Position numbers and translations under genes: made by a program. Shown piece after piece: positions 5,553-10,432 of a stretch of 10,432 nt of DNA. Within the stretch, counting starts at the first letter, position 1; the number at the start of each line of letters is the position of its first letter. This DNA comes from Methyloprofundus sp. GTDB lineage: Bacteria; Pseudomonadota; Gammaproteobacteria; Methylococcales; Methylomonadaceae. Below the pieces are notes generated by a model. That model was not told where the DNA came from. It saw only the letters and a program-made list of their open reading frames with translations, and did no database searches. The stretch lies in NCBI GenBank assembly GCA_030619185.1, contig JAUXBW010000050.1:1-10432 (forward strand), written 5' to 3'.

Positions 5553-6536
5553 TTACGCTTCTATTTCAGCAAGACGACCTGCTAATAACTCTTCTAATAC
5601 TACCAATGCTTTTTCAAAGCCTTTGATACCTTCTTCTAGCTTTTCATTTGCCATGCGGTTCTCAGTATGCATTTTATCAAATGTTGCTTTATCAACATTA
5701 ATTTCAGCTATATCCATAGATTGTGCTTTAGCAGCATCTAGCTTAATAGGCAGATTACCTTCTGTTGATTGTAATTCATCTAATAGTGCAGGAGAAATTG
5801 TAAGTAAATCACATCCTGCTAATTCAGTAATTTCACCGATGTTACGGAAGCTGGCACCCATAACTTCAGTTTTAAAACCAAATTTTTTGTAGTAATTGAA
5901 AATTTCAGTGACGGATACAACACCTGGATCTTCAGCTGGCTCATAAGCATCACGACCTGTGTCTTTTTTATACCAGTCTAAAATACGTCCGACAAAAGGA
6001 GAAATCAGAGTAATACCGTTTTCAGCACAGGCAATGGCTTGATGCTTGCCAAATACTAAAGTCAAGTTAGTGTGAATACCTTCTTGTTCAAGAACTTTAG
6101 CTGCCTGAATTCCTTCCCATGTCGCTGCAACTTTAATCAATATACGCTTACGATCTACACCTGCAGCTTCATATTGAGCGATTAAGTCACGTCCTTTAGC
6201 AATCGTTGCGTCAGTATCATAAGATAAACGTGCATCAACTTCTGTAGAAACACGGCCTGGTACGATTTCAAGAATTTTTAAACCGAATGATACGGCTAAA
6301 CGGTCAAAAGCCAGACCAACAACCTCAGGTGCTGCAGCAGACGCGCCTACTGTGTCACGTGCGCCTTTTAATGTATCATCAACAATAGATTGGTATTGCG
6401 GCATTTGCGCTGCTGCGGTGATCAACGAAGGATTAGTCGTTGCATCTCTTGGTGTAAATTTTTCAATTGCGCCAATATCGCCCGTGTCAGAAACTGCTAC
6501 TGTTACTGCTTTAAGTTGGTCTAAAAAATTAGCCAT
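5553..6536 (-). CDS. tal: Transaldolase (TalB type)
   Basis: Transaldolase moves a dihydroxyacetone unit between sedoheptulose-7-phosphate and glyceraldehyde-3-phosphate, giving erythrose-4-phosphate and fructose-6-phosphate, in the non-oxidative pentose phosphate pathway (and the RuMP cycle where present). The 327-residue length and sequence match class I TalB (E. coli 317). Visible active-site residues: D17 (VSDTGD), N35 (DATTNPSL), E99 ([12 protein letters not shown]), the Schiff-base lysine K135 in [12 protein letters not shown]159 (TNLTL) and S179 (ISPF). The C-terminus is about 10 residues longer than E. coli's, ending [12 protein letters not shown]. The ATG at 6536 follows AAAGG at a normal distance. 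It lies in the same direction as tkt and the two repeat-protein genes upstream, but about 0.45 kb from the nearest of them, so it probably has its own promoter. Confidence 0.96.
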
Positions 6537-6981: not shown

Positions 6982-7656
6982 TTATGCCGCTGTTAAATTA
7001 GCTGCCTGTCTTGCTGCAACACCTTGCTTAGCAATATATTTTGCAACACTACTAGTCAACAATGTAGGTCTATTCTCTAAATATTTATCAACGCCACTAG
7101 GTTCAACAATGCAAATCTCTGGCTTATTTTTGTCCGCAAGTGATTTTTGAATCACATACCTATCAACACTACTGACTGTTGCGTCGACACGGTTCTTCAA
7201 ATATTTTGCAACGCCTGTTGTAACAGGTTTGGTTTCGATAATATTTGCTAAGTATTTTGCCACACCTGTCTCAACTAGCTCTTCTTCCTGAGCCGCTATA
7301 ATAGCCTGCTCCTGGCTTTCAACATATCTAGCTACACCACTTAGTTTTTCATTTTCAGCACTCATCAAGCTCTCCTCTGTTTTTCTTAGTTCTATGGTTG
7401 CTTTAACACGGGCATTTATCGCATCCTTCTCAACATCTGTCAGATCTATTGCTGTAGCATTACGAGTTTGTATATACTCACCAACACTACTTAACTTCTT
7501 TGTATAGCGACTTATTTCAACAGGCTTATCACTTTGCTCATGAATATATTTGGCGACTCCCGTTAGGCTTTCACCTAAAGAGTCTACAGGCACATCTTCA
7601 CGATAGATATCCTGACTAGTTTGTTTGCTGGAAAAAATACCCGATAAAAAACCCAT
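6982..7656 (-). CDS. Soluble protein with eight [S/T][G/S]VxxY[L/I/V] repeats, function unknown
   Basis: I do not recognise a named family. The 224-residue product carries a short repeated motif, best seen as TGVAKYL: TGVAKYIHEQ (32-41), SSVGEYIQTR (56-65), SGVARYVESQ (106-115), TGVAKYLANI (130-139), TGVAKYLKNR (147-156), SSVDRYVIQK (162-171), SGVDKYLENR (187-196) and SSVAKYIAKQ (202-211), with a decayed one near 47-54 (EISRYTKK). Val and Tyr are invariant in the eight. A charged, probably helical stretch without motifs spans about 70-105. There is no membrane helix or signal peptide, though MGFLSGIF at the start is hydrophobic and might touch a membrane. The Shine-Dalgarno AAAGGG lies inside the end of the upstream gene and only 4 nt separate that stop from this ATG, so translation is probably coupled. 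A cytoplasmic scaffold or binding partner is an inference. Confidence 0.85.
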   Translation of the reverse strand: MGFLSGIFSSKQTSQDIYREDVPVDSLGESLTGVAKYIHEQSDKPVEISRYTKKLSSVGEYIQTRNATAIDLTDVEKDAINARVKATIELRKTEESLMSAENEKLSGVARYVESQEQAIIAAQEEELVETGVAKYLANIIETKPVTTGVAKYLKNRVDATVSSVDRYVIQKSLADKNKPEICIVEPSGVDKYLENRPTLLTSSVAKYIAKQGVAARQAANLTAA

Positions 7657-7660
7657 TTAG

Positions 7661-8368
7661 TTACCCTTTATTACGTACGTATTTTTCTACGCCAGTCGTT
7701 TTCTCAGAGGCTGCCTGTTTAGCTGCTACAACTTTTTTAGCAACATATTTTGCAACGCCAGACTTTGGAGCAGATTGATTTGCTTGTAAGTATTTATCAA
7801 CCCCAGAAAGCTTAGGTATTTTGTTCTGTAAATATTTAGCAACACCGCTTACCCCTTCGGCATTACGAAAGTTGGCTGCAGGAGCTACCGAGCGTCTTGC
7901 TCTGACGCTTGCTTTAGGCTTCGCAGCAGTCCCTTTAGAATTCTTAAGGAAGAGAAAGCCAGCTACCGCTAATACTAGTACTGCGAATAAGGGGTTCATT
8001 GAAGACCCTTCACCATCAGCATCAGCATACTTCTCTTCAATAGCTGCATCAATTTTTTCTTCCCACATTGCTAAAGGAATCGACTTACTTGATGCTGCAC
8101 CGCTATTATGCTTGTAATCTTTGTCTTGATATACAACTTTGGGCTGAAAAGTCGCTGCAGGATAATTAGCATCGGCCGCTGCTTTTTCACCCGAAGATGC
8201 GCTAGCACTTGAACTTGAAGATTGAGATCCTTCATGCTGATAATCTTTATCCTGATAAACAACTTTGGGTTGAAAATCAGATGCCGGATATTGAGTACCT
8301 GCCGTCACGAAAGGACTTGCAAGTAATAAGGCAGCAAATATGCCTTTTTGTACATTATTTTTTTTCAC
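7661..8368 (-). CDS. Membrane-anchored protein with two FQPKVVYQDKDY and four [S/T]GVxKY[L/V] repeats, function unknown
   Basis: No named family recognised. The GTG at 8368 (235 aa, MKKNNVQKGIFAALLL) is preferred over a GTG three codons earlier (8377) because the Shine-Dalgarno AGGTGA sits at the right distance for it and would overlap the earlier one. Numbered from 8368: signal peptide about 1-23 with a likely cut after VTA; two copies of a 19-residue motif YPA-x2-FQPKVVYQDKDY-x-H at 27-45 and 69-87, joined by a Ser-rich linker; an amphipathic stretch (MWEEKIDAAIEEKYADAD); one membrane helix at about 125-143 (NPLFAVLVLAVAGFLFL); then a basic tail with SGVAKYLQNK (174-183), SGVDKYLQAN (188-197), SGVAKYVAKK (203-212) and TGVEKYVRNK (225-234). 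Positive charge after the helix predicts a cytoplasmic tail. It is first of a two-gene unit 108 bp after tkt. Joint action with its neighbour is inferred from the shared motif. Confidence 0.85.
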   Translation of the reverse strand: MKKNNVQKGIFAALLLASPFVTAGTQYPASDFQPKVVYQDKDYQHEGSQSSSSSASASSGEKAAADANYPAATFQPKVVYQDKDYKHNSGAASSKSIPLAMWEEKIDAAIEEKYADADGEGSSMNPLFAVLVLAVAGFLFLKNSKGTAAKPKASVRARRSVAPAANFRNAEGVSGVAKYLQNKIPKLSGVDKYLQANQSAPKSGVAKYVAKKVVAAKQAASEKTTGVEKYVRNKG

Positions 8369-8476: not shown

Positions 8477-10432
8477 CTACAATACTTCTTTAACAGTCTT
8501 AACAACGTTATCAACTGTGAAGCCGAAGTGTTCCATCAATACACCACCTGGTGCAGATTCACCAAAAGTGTCAATACCAACTACACCACCTTCTAAGCCT
8601 ACATATTTACGCCAAAAGTCTGTCACACCTGCTTCAACAGCAATGCGTTTCACACCTGGAGTCAATACGCTATCTTTGTATGCTTGATCCTGACGATCAA
8701 AAACATTAGTAGAAGGCATAGAAACAACGCTAACATTAACGCCATCAGCAGCTAATGCCTCCTGGGCTTTCATGGCTAGATCCAGTTCAGAACCTGTTGC
8801 AATGATAATAGCAGCTGCATCACCTTTTGCTGCTGATAAAATATATGCACCTTTACGAATGCCGTCAAAATCAGCTGTATCGTGCTTACGTCCAGGCATG
8901 CCTTGACGACTGAATACCAAGCTAGAAGGCCCGTCCATACGCTCAACAGCGGCAGTCCATGCAACCGCCACTTCAGTTGAATCTCCAGGACGCCAAACAT
9001 CCATATTTGGGATCAAACGCATTGCCGATGTATTTTCAATTGGCTGATGCGTTGGGCCATCTTCACCCTGACCGATAGAGTCATGAGTTAATACGGCAAT
9101 GGTGCGAATCTTCATTAATGCAGCCATGCGGAAGGCACTTTTTGCATAATCAGAGAACATATGGAATGTGCCACCGAATGGAATTAACCCACCGTGTAAG
9201 GACATACCATTCATGATTGCATACATACCAAATTCACGAACACCATAAGAGATGTAGTTACCTGGTTTTTTGCCATCAACGTGTGTGAAACTGTCACAAC
9301 TGGTTAAGTTAGAACCTGTTAAATCCGCAGAACCACCCAAGAATTCAGGTAGTACAGGTGCTAAAGCTGCAATTGTTTTTTGTGATGCCTGACGAGATGC
9401 TAATTTAGCTGCAGCTTCGTTAGTTTCAGCAATCATTGCATCCGTTGCTGCTTTCCAGTTAGCTGGTAAGTCACCCGCCATACGACGTGTAAACTCTGCT
9501 GCTAATTCAGGGAAGTCTTTCGCATAAGCTGCAAATTTCTCATCCCAGCTTTTTTCTGCTGCCGAACCTTTTTCTTTGCCATCCCAACCCGCATAGACTT
9601 CAGCAGGAATTTCGAATGGAGCAGGCTCCCATCCTAACTCTTTACGCGTTAGTGCAACTTCTTCGTCACCCAATGCCGCGCCATGACAGTCATGGCTACC
9701 GCTTTTGTTAGGTGAACCAAAGCCGATAATTGTTTTACAACAAATTAAAGAAGGCTTATCAGTTACTTTTTTAGCTTCTGCTATCGCTGCATTGATTGCA
9801 TCCGCATCATGACCGTCTACAGAAATAACATGCCACTGATAAGCTTCAAAACGCTTAACAGTATCATCTGTATACCAGGCATCAATATGACCATCAATTG
9901 AGATGTTATTATCATCCCAGAATGCGATTAATTTACCTAGACCCCATGTACCCGCTAAAGAACAAGCTTCATGAGAAACACCTTCCATCAAACAACCATC
10001 ACCTAAAAATACATAAGTATTATGGTCTACGATGTCATGCCCTGGCTTATTGAATTGGTCTGCCATTAGCTTTTCAGCCATTGCGAAACCAACACCATTT
10101 GTGATGCCTTGACCTAGAGGACCTGTTGTTGTTTCAATACCAGGTGCATAGCCATATTCAGGGTGACCCGCACATTGTGAATGTAGTTGACGGAATGACT
10201 TTAATTGATCCATAGCCAGGTCGTAACCTGTCAAATGCAATAATGAATAAATTAACATTGACCCGTGACCATTAGATAAAACAAAACGGTCACGATCAGC
10301 CCATTTAGGGTTCGTTGGGTTATGTTTTAAGTGGTCATTCCACAATACTTCGGCGATATCCGCCATGCCCATAGGTGCACCAGGATGACCTGATTTTGCT
10401 TTTTGAACAGCATCCATGCTTAAAGCGCGTAT
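8477..10432 (-). CDS. tkt: Transketolase, 5' end cut by window edge
   Basis: Transketolase moves two-carbon ketol units between sugar phosphates using thiamine diphosphate and a divalent metal, in the pentose phosphate pathway and in the RuMP or Calvin cycles. The frame stays open to the window end (IRALSMDAV...), matching E. coli TktA from about residue 11, so only about ten codons are missing and the Met at 10417 is internal. Numbered from that Met: KSGHPG with active-site H11; the thiamine-diphosphate motif GDGCLMEG (139-146) ending in DDNN (168-171); [10 protein letters not shown] (95-104); the pyrimidine-domain catalytic glutamate E395 in [24 protein letters not shown] (444-459); and the C-terminal domain with IATGSE and FGESAP. 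No key residue is missing. It is followed in the same direction by the two repeat-protein genes and then tal. Confidence 0.97.

Follow-up and report, generated by a model that had tools for sequence, protein, structure and literature searches.

The window analyzed here is one entire contig of 10,432 nucleotides from a draft genome of a Methyloprofundus species that is 66% complete. On its reverse strand, the window contains two adjacent genes, of which the products are referred to as protein B and protein A. Protein B (7661..8368, −) starts with GTG, counts 235 aa and has one membrane helix and four copies of a short motif that are predicted to be cytoplasmic. Protein A (6982..7656, −) counts 224 aa, starts with MGFLSGIFSSK and carries eight copies of the same motif, [S/T][G/S]VxxY[L/I/V]. 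A sequence-only reading of this DNA had stated that the genes are 4 nt apart, with the ribosome site of the second gene inside the first. The sequence bears this out, as 4 nt separate the stop of B from the start of A and a ribosome-site-like AAAGGG for A lies within the final codons of B. The pair is flanked by two genes of the ribulose-monophosphate (RuMP) operon, upstream by tkt for transketolase (8477..10432, −; TIGR00232), which is cut by the contig end, and downstream by tal for transaldolase (5553..6536, −; TIGR00874). In relatives, hps and phi are found beyond tkt, the gene inside which the window contig stops. Judged by the homolog matches of A and B, the closest named relatives are Methyloprofundus and the methanotroph symbionts of Bathymodiolus.

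All motif copies lie on the reverse strand and were located by pattern, with a predicted helix at each of them. In A, they are TGVAKYI (7543..7563, helix from residue 33), SSVGEYI (7471..7491, from 57), SGVARYV (7321..7341, from 107), TGVAKYL (7249..7269, from 131), a second TGVAKYL (7198..7218, from 148), SSVDRYV (7153..7173, from 163), SGVDKYL (7078..7098, from 188) and SSVAKYI (7033..7053, from 203). In B, they are SGVAKYL (7829..7849), where the predicted helix begins one residue on, SGVDKYL (7787..7807), SGVAKYV (7742..7762) and TGVEKYV (7676..7696). The count of eight and four copies had been made before and lies far above chance, since shuffled A and B sequences contain a mean of about 0.005 copies, with a maximum of one (A) or two (B) in 20,000 shuffles. 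The observation that mostly Lys or Arg precedes the Tyr holds as well, for 11 of the 12 copies, SVGEYI in A being the exception.

Homolog searches yielded 156 sequences for A and 817 for B. In an alignment of 21 A homologs picked for diversity, there are 19 invariant columns and all 19 fall inside motif copies. In the B alignment (21 homologs), invariance is seen in the motifs, in two periplasmic repeats and at some isolated positions, for example G9, A23, D66 and L133. Across 2174 copies from 359 proteins, each having at least two copies by a scan that required S/T, V and Y but not the K/R position, the consensus reads S/T, then G (71%) or S, V, A/E/S/D, K (70%) or R (22%), Y and L/I/V/M, position +4 being K or R in 92% of the copies. 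The number of copies per protein reaches 19 in the named HPS loci. With many conserved short copies amid variable sequence, these proteins resemble a multivalent linear-motif scaffold. Chance or low-complexity repeats are ruled out by the shuffles and by the invariant columns of both alignments. Elsewhere in the same genome, the pattern occurs five times as a lone match; these are taken as chance because they lie in tiny frames of 12–67 codons and a backward-pattern control gave a similar number, three.

AlphaFold2 models, made of single chains only, place the start of a helix one residue past the S/T in all eight copies of A and all four of B. Neither protein is given a global fold: A is modeled with low confidence as a string of helices (pTM 0.20, mean pLDDT 64.6), and confidence is low for B too (pTM 0.16, mean pLDDT 57.3). 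In these models, the motif suits a helix cap formed by S/T, after which Val, Tyr and Leu line one side of a short helix. The predicted motif helices have one hydrophobic face, with a moment of 0.41–0.48. Residues 74–101 of A (window 7354–7437), between motifs 2 and 3, are modeled as a single long helix, which is the best-confidence part of the A model; the five Methyloprofundus-type sequences at the top of the alignment have it, and the other 16 show a gap there.

Protein B is built of modules. After a signal peptide (residues 1–23; 8300..8368, −; assigned by eye, A23 being invariant in the B alignment) come two YPAxxFQPKVVYxD repeats on the predicted periplasmic side, then a single membrane helix and the four cytoplasmic motifs. 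The first periplasmic repeat is YPASDFQPKVVYQDKDYQH (8234..8290, −; invariant Y27, P28, A29, F32, P34, Y43 and H45) and the second is YPAATFQPKVVYQDKDYKH (8108..8164, −; invariant P70, A71, A72, P76, V78, D82, Y85 and H87). In its longer form, YPAxxFQPKVVYxDxxYKH, this twice-occurring conserved repeat was absent from the sequence-only reading. That reading had called B a membrane anchor, in agreement with the predicted signal-peptide-like N-terminus and single hydrophobic segment. The membrane helix, recognized in the sequence and predicted at residues 126–143, and the K/R-rich stretch after it lie at 7931..7993 (−). Because B thus has a signal-peptide-like start, one hydrophobic segment and then a K/R-rich stretch, its four motifs are predicted to be cytoplasmic, which gives this membrane-anchored protein separate conserved repeats on either side of the membrane.

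The periplasmic repeat also occurs as a stand-alone module. Small secreted proteins of 84–95 aa consist of two such repeats plus a linker and lack a membrane helix (L124 8967–9239, +; L125 9186–9440, −; L054 8932–9219, +). Moreover, genomes of family f6 and genome G009 encode membrane proteins that have the two periplasmic repeats but a different cytoplasmic tail, without the motif (L127 9223–9867; L128 9031–9654; L129 9317–10054; L126 1004–1648). In G009, where the B-type match is the periplasmic half only, a pmoA match is present and HPS is not above the cut-off. Since the periplasmic repeat exists on its own, B seems to join two docking systems, one on each side of the membrane. Protein A is without a periplasmic half. 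It had been described as soluble, which is doubtful, since its relatives bear hydrophobic or amphipathic N-terminal stretches, such as LFFPAVAGLFFFMKRP and GFFSSICGLLKGIFSS; judging from these starts, A itself might contact the membrane. For the N-terminus of A in the window, amphipathicity is low (moment 0.09).

The genes of A and B belong to the RuMP formaldehyde-assimilation operon. The order hps-phi-tkt-B-A-tal is found in most of the Methylococcales loci examined. In Methylococcaceae (f4), a B-type gene lies directly ahead of hps-phi in most motif-bearing loci, with tkt and tal near or away, and in Methylophaga the order is hps-A-tal. A set of 76 named HPS loci was taken from the 80 best of 486 when ranked by similarity of HPS, which biases the sample to close relatives. 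Within this set, a motif protein is present in 70 loci, and all six misses are contigs that end short of the expected place. The arrangements are hps-A-tal (31), tkt-B-A-tal (29), tkt-B-tal (3) and tkt-A-tal (1), A and B being sorted by the pattern of the periplasmic repeat, by which L203 is possibly mislabelled. A check on the co-occurrence of anchor and partner thus finds B followed by A in 29 of the 33 named loci in which the stretch from tkt to tal can be read. No B-type gene is seen in the 31 Methylophaga-type loci, as judged by reading the loci and not by applying the B profile to those genomes. In every fully read arrangement, hps and phi lie inside the cluster. The direct neighbor of the motif genes is hps in Methylophaga and Methylococcaceae, and tkt and tal in Methyloprofundus and kin, so that no single enzyme gene directly adjoins the motif genes in all arrangements read. 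The identity of hps (TIGR03128) and phi (TIGR03127) was established at two loci, that of tkt and tal also by NCBIfam, and fba, encoding a class-II aldolase, was recognized in the cluster by Pfam. Altogether, the motif genes hold a conserved position in the RuMP operons of many species, which belong to two bacterial orders.

Where operon units are duplicated, each copy has its scaffold gene. The Methylotuvimicrobium buryatense-type genome G008 has three identical tandem hps-phi-tkt units; A stands behind two of them and B behind the third. In this genome, at L055 (5199–19501), the hps-phi-tkt-A unit is repeated base for base (4885/4885). Genomes of genus g30 have two B-hps-phi units. For M. capsulatus, an earlier report describes a 5,267-bp repeat (PMC517821), and the two units of g30, a genus taken for Methylococcus, fit this repeat. 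In a 2026 CRISPRi screen of M. capsulatus, guides on both RuMP operons, MCA3040-45 and MCA3046-50, had negative fitness according to the accessible text of the study, which does not single out B (PMC13108547).

In the Methylococcales and other gammaproteobacterial genomes sampled, the distribution of the motif follows that of HPS. Of 251 genomes of Methylococcales, 217 match the B profile and 213 have HPS over the cut-off. Both are found in 205 genomes, HPS alone in 8, the B profile alone in 12 and neither in 26 (Fisher p 2e-19, kinship ignored; hand tally from two listings, the 14 unlisted misses being deduced from the genome numbering). The 12 genomes with the B profile alone are G009, with the periplasmic half only, G046 (f6), without an HPS match, and 10 drafts in which the match to HPS is partial or weak. 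A motif protein does not stand alongside every HPS, as 8 of the 213 HPS-bearing Methylococcales are without a B match. In family f6, the B match was the periplasmic half alone in the four genomes read, and no motif gene is present at any of the nine hps-phi loci. The B-profile matches of f6 and G009 are therefore excluded from the motif carriers (periplasmic half only, five genomes read). By this count, approximately 17 of the 213 HPS-bearing Methylococcales, i.e., 8 Methylococcaceae and 9 of f6, are without the cytoplasmic motif, which indicates that it is not indispensable to the pathway. As a separate observation, contig C1 of the f6 genome G018 (L136) has motif genes, and its B is identical to that of G002:C285 (L082) over 217 of 217 letters including the stop; as the two contigs are filed under different families, one of them may be a contaminant.

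Across Gammaproteobacteria, A-type proteins were found in 6 and HPS (E below 1e-40) in 5 of a sample of 369 gammaproteobacterial genomes, the six carriers being the five HPS genomes and the genome of the window itself (G000). Beyond Methylococcales, the carriers in this sample belong to one family, Methylophagaceae (f10). Of the 57 Methylophagaceae genomes, 53 match the motif model; 46 of these have a short operon-type gene, and in the other 7 the match is only a long ChpA-like frame. Methylophagaceae are methanol users without methane monooxygenase. Since they nevertheless carry the motif, it follows RuMP and not methane oxidation. Methane monooxygenase was considered as the primary driver, and the data speak against it: Methylophaga has the motif, while family f7, of which 12 of the 18 genomes have a pmoA-family match, is without a B match and without HPS in all 18.

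Taken together, one or two undescribed proteins made of short helix repeats and encoded in the cluster for converting formaldehyde to sugar, one of them membrane-anchored, probably hold formaldehyde-fixing enzymes together at the membrane in many methane- and methanol-eating bacteria. More specifically, we propose that A and B form the scaffold of a membrane-associated assembly of RuMP enzymes, a reading to which we give an even chance. It builds on the observed conservation of the motif, the operon context, the co-distribution with HPS and the modular build of B. Each motif copy would start a helix of approximately 10 residues that docks on a folded client. As the copies are spaced by flexible linkers, one scaffold could hold many client subunits, and a multivalent scaffold combined with a multimeric client would give rise to a cluster or condensate. 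Displaying four motifs towards the cytoplasm and two repeats towards the periplasm, B would pin this cluster to the (intracytoplasmic) membrane, the site where formaldehyde is formed from methanol, which would benefit formaldehyde capture. As no B-type gene is seen in the 31 Methylophaga-type loci, anchoring in these bacteria would depend solely on the N-terminus of A. The sequence-only reading had already pictured a scaffold by which a cytoplasmic enzyme or assembly is tethered at the inner membrane. This picture fits the RuMP operon context, and the putative client pathway can now be named as the RuMP cycle; the motif is not confined to the pair, as it also occurs in ChpA (see below).

HPS would be the likeliest client, with PHI next. 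HPS is a dimer, and the enzyme of M. capsulatus was reportedly once found, in 1974, to be large and particulate. In Methylococcaceae, motif-bearing genomes have an HPS with a median identity of 74.9% to that of Methyloprofundus (n = 29) vs. 67.8% for motif-less ones (n = 11; p 8e-6), in a comparison from which G003 and G011b were dropped, in which the rows G111 and G058 count as motif-bearing although no motif gene was seen, and in which some genomes are counted twice. The same comparison for PHI shows no difference (28 vs. 3 sequences, p 0.45), with only three motif-less PHI. In the HPS tree, the motif-less Methylococcaceae are spread over three positions, of which two lie on long branches within the motif-bearing side. 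Family f6, G033 and G061 are set apart from Methylophaga and the motif-bearing Methylococcales (support 94/88, midpoint root). Between HPS with and without the motif, only three columns discriminate, and these show no obvious interface. The divergence of HPS in the absence of the motif is suggestive of HPS as the client, although it is confounded by kinship. PHI, which is encoded in the same clusters, is a possible client as well.

The motif is not restricted to RuMP operons. In Methylophagaceae, the type IV pilus chemosensory kinase ChpA has it too, in copies that precede the kinase core and number four in G409 (L098 5745–11852, −), three in G611 (L135 6601–12207, −) and six in G252 (L099 3–2549, −). 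The proteins of G409 and G611 have the ChpA-type domains Hpt, HATPase, CheW and receiver, and that of G252 is an Hpt piece cut by the contig end. One Methylococcales genome additionally encodes a 277-aa protein that has four copies of the motif and a C-terminus rich in Cys and His (L051 8338–9171, +), near HD-GAF and protein-kinase genes and apart from the RuMP operon of that genome. Either the motif has a partner beyond the RuMP pathway, or ChpA binds the client to which A and B would bind. Given ChpA and the Cys-rich protein, the partner may be a general hub. The motif would then bind a hub or polar protein instead of a RuMP enzyme and gather both RuMP scaffolds and the ChpA of Methylophaga, coupling one-carbon status to type IV pilus behavior. 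The motif-bearing ChpA-type proteins of the three genomes, together with matches of the motif model to frames of 1819–2065 aa in 27 of 57 Methylophagaceae genomes, speak for such a hub. However, such a hub would need to be restricted to lineages with HPS, as no motif protein without HPS is found in the 369 genomes save in the incomplete genome of the window, and there is no motif-bearing ChpA in Methylococcales among the matches listed. We therefore regard it as rather unlikely.

Two other explanations keep A and B close to the membrane or to the enzymes without a scaffold. The repeats could be amphipathic helices that bind or bend membranes, which would make A and B structural proteins of intracytoplasmic membranes. 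Methylococcales possess such membranes, B is a membrane protein, relatives of A have hydrophobic N-termini, and short helices with one hydrophobic face (moment 0.41–0.48, as above) are what this explanation predicts. Yet the strict Val and Tyr are better suited to a protein groove than to a lipid face, and the f7 genomes have no B in spite of their pmoA-family matches. Methylophaga is a methanol user without intracytoplasmic membranes, but it keeps A in its RuMP operon. On balance, we regard a role in binding or bending membranes as improbable. Alternatively, A and B could be regulators or chaperones of a RuMP enzyme, involved for example in the assembly or inhibition of HPS, with no larger cluster being formed. 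The operon context and the divergence of HPS where the motif is missing would be the same in that case. Up to 19 copies per protein and the co-duplication with the enzymes, however, fit a stoichiometric and multivalent role better, and the chance that A and B act in this manner appears small. The scaffold of RuMP enzymes, our preferred reading, can also be extended to a transmembrane bridge, in which the YPAxxFQPKVVYxD repeats of B would hold the periplasmic methanol-oxidising machinery, while its SGVAKYL repeats, together with A, would hold a cytoplasmic condensate of HPS with its partners in the pathway, so that toxic formaldehyde would be caught on entry into the cytoplasm. A periplasmic module that exists on its own is expected of such a second, independent docking system, but we consider the full bridge unlikely.

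Methanotrophs make toxic formaldehyde in the periplasm and fix it in the cytoplasm; how they keep it from escaping in between is an unsolved problem, which is also a bottleneck in the engineering of methylotrophy. If the proposal is true, a conserved scaffold encoded in the RuMP operon would provide a physical answer to formaldehyde capture as well as a ready-made engineering part.

The sequence-only reading could not assign the pair to any described system, and this still holds for Pfam, NCBIfam, PHROGs and PDB, none of which gives a significant match. Against Pfam, NCBIfam and PHROGs, the best hits of the A and B proteins of the window have an E of 0.017 or worse and stay below any cut-off that is set, and a single-sequence search of PDB gives no match. 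Profile searches of A and B reach an E of 0.035 or worse, and the Methylophaga members a best E of 0.0065 in NCBIfam, far under the cut-off. The Pfam labels PF19809 and PF12220 are precomputed on some A homologs. A phage or mobile origin was rejected, given the stable operon position and PHROGs matches of only E 0.035 or worse. No published description of A or B was found in the literature searched, which did not include most subscription journals or any supplements.

Repeat scaffolds are already known as a kind, CsoS2 and EPYC1 being examples; a RuMP-pathway scaffold with a membrane-spanning member has, as far as seen, not been described before. CsoS2 from alpha-carboxysomes resembles A and B in that it is disordered, has many copies of a short motif and has its gene in one operon with a carbon-fixing enzyme, which it probably binds multivalently, as is proposed for A and B. 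A and B differ from it by another motif, by their membrane-anchored member and by the absence of any CsoS2 match at E up to 1 in Pfam and NCBIfam. A Pfam scan of nine neighbors at one locus (L050) shows no shell-protein or Rubisco family, the other loci having been scanned for RuMP genes only. EPYC1, the Rubisco linker of the algal pyrenoid, likewise consists of repeated short helices and linkers and condenses a multimeric enzyme. It is eukaryotic, however, has another client pathway and is not known to have a membrane-spanning member. Encapsulation peptides of bacterial microcompartment enzymes are, like the motif, short amphipathic helices serving as docking tags, but they are usually single, terminal and located on the cargo, whereas A and B carry many copies on dedicated scaffolds. 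Finally, HPS-PHI fusions and engineered Mdh-Hps-Phi assemblies gather the same enzymes for formaldehyde capture, as is proposed for A and B, and an engineered fusion system is reported to have increased methanol conversion (PMC8879981). In these systems the linking is covalent or artificial, while A and B are encoded by separate, natural scaffold genes.
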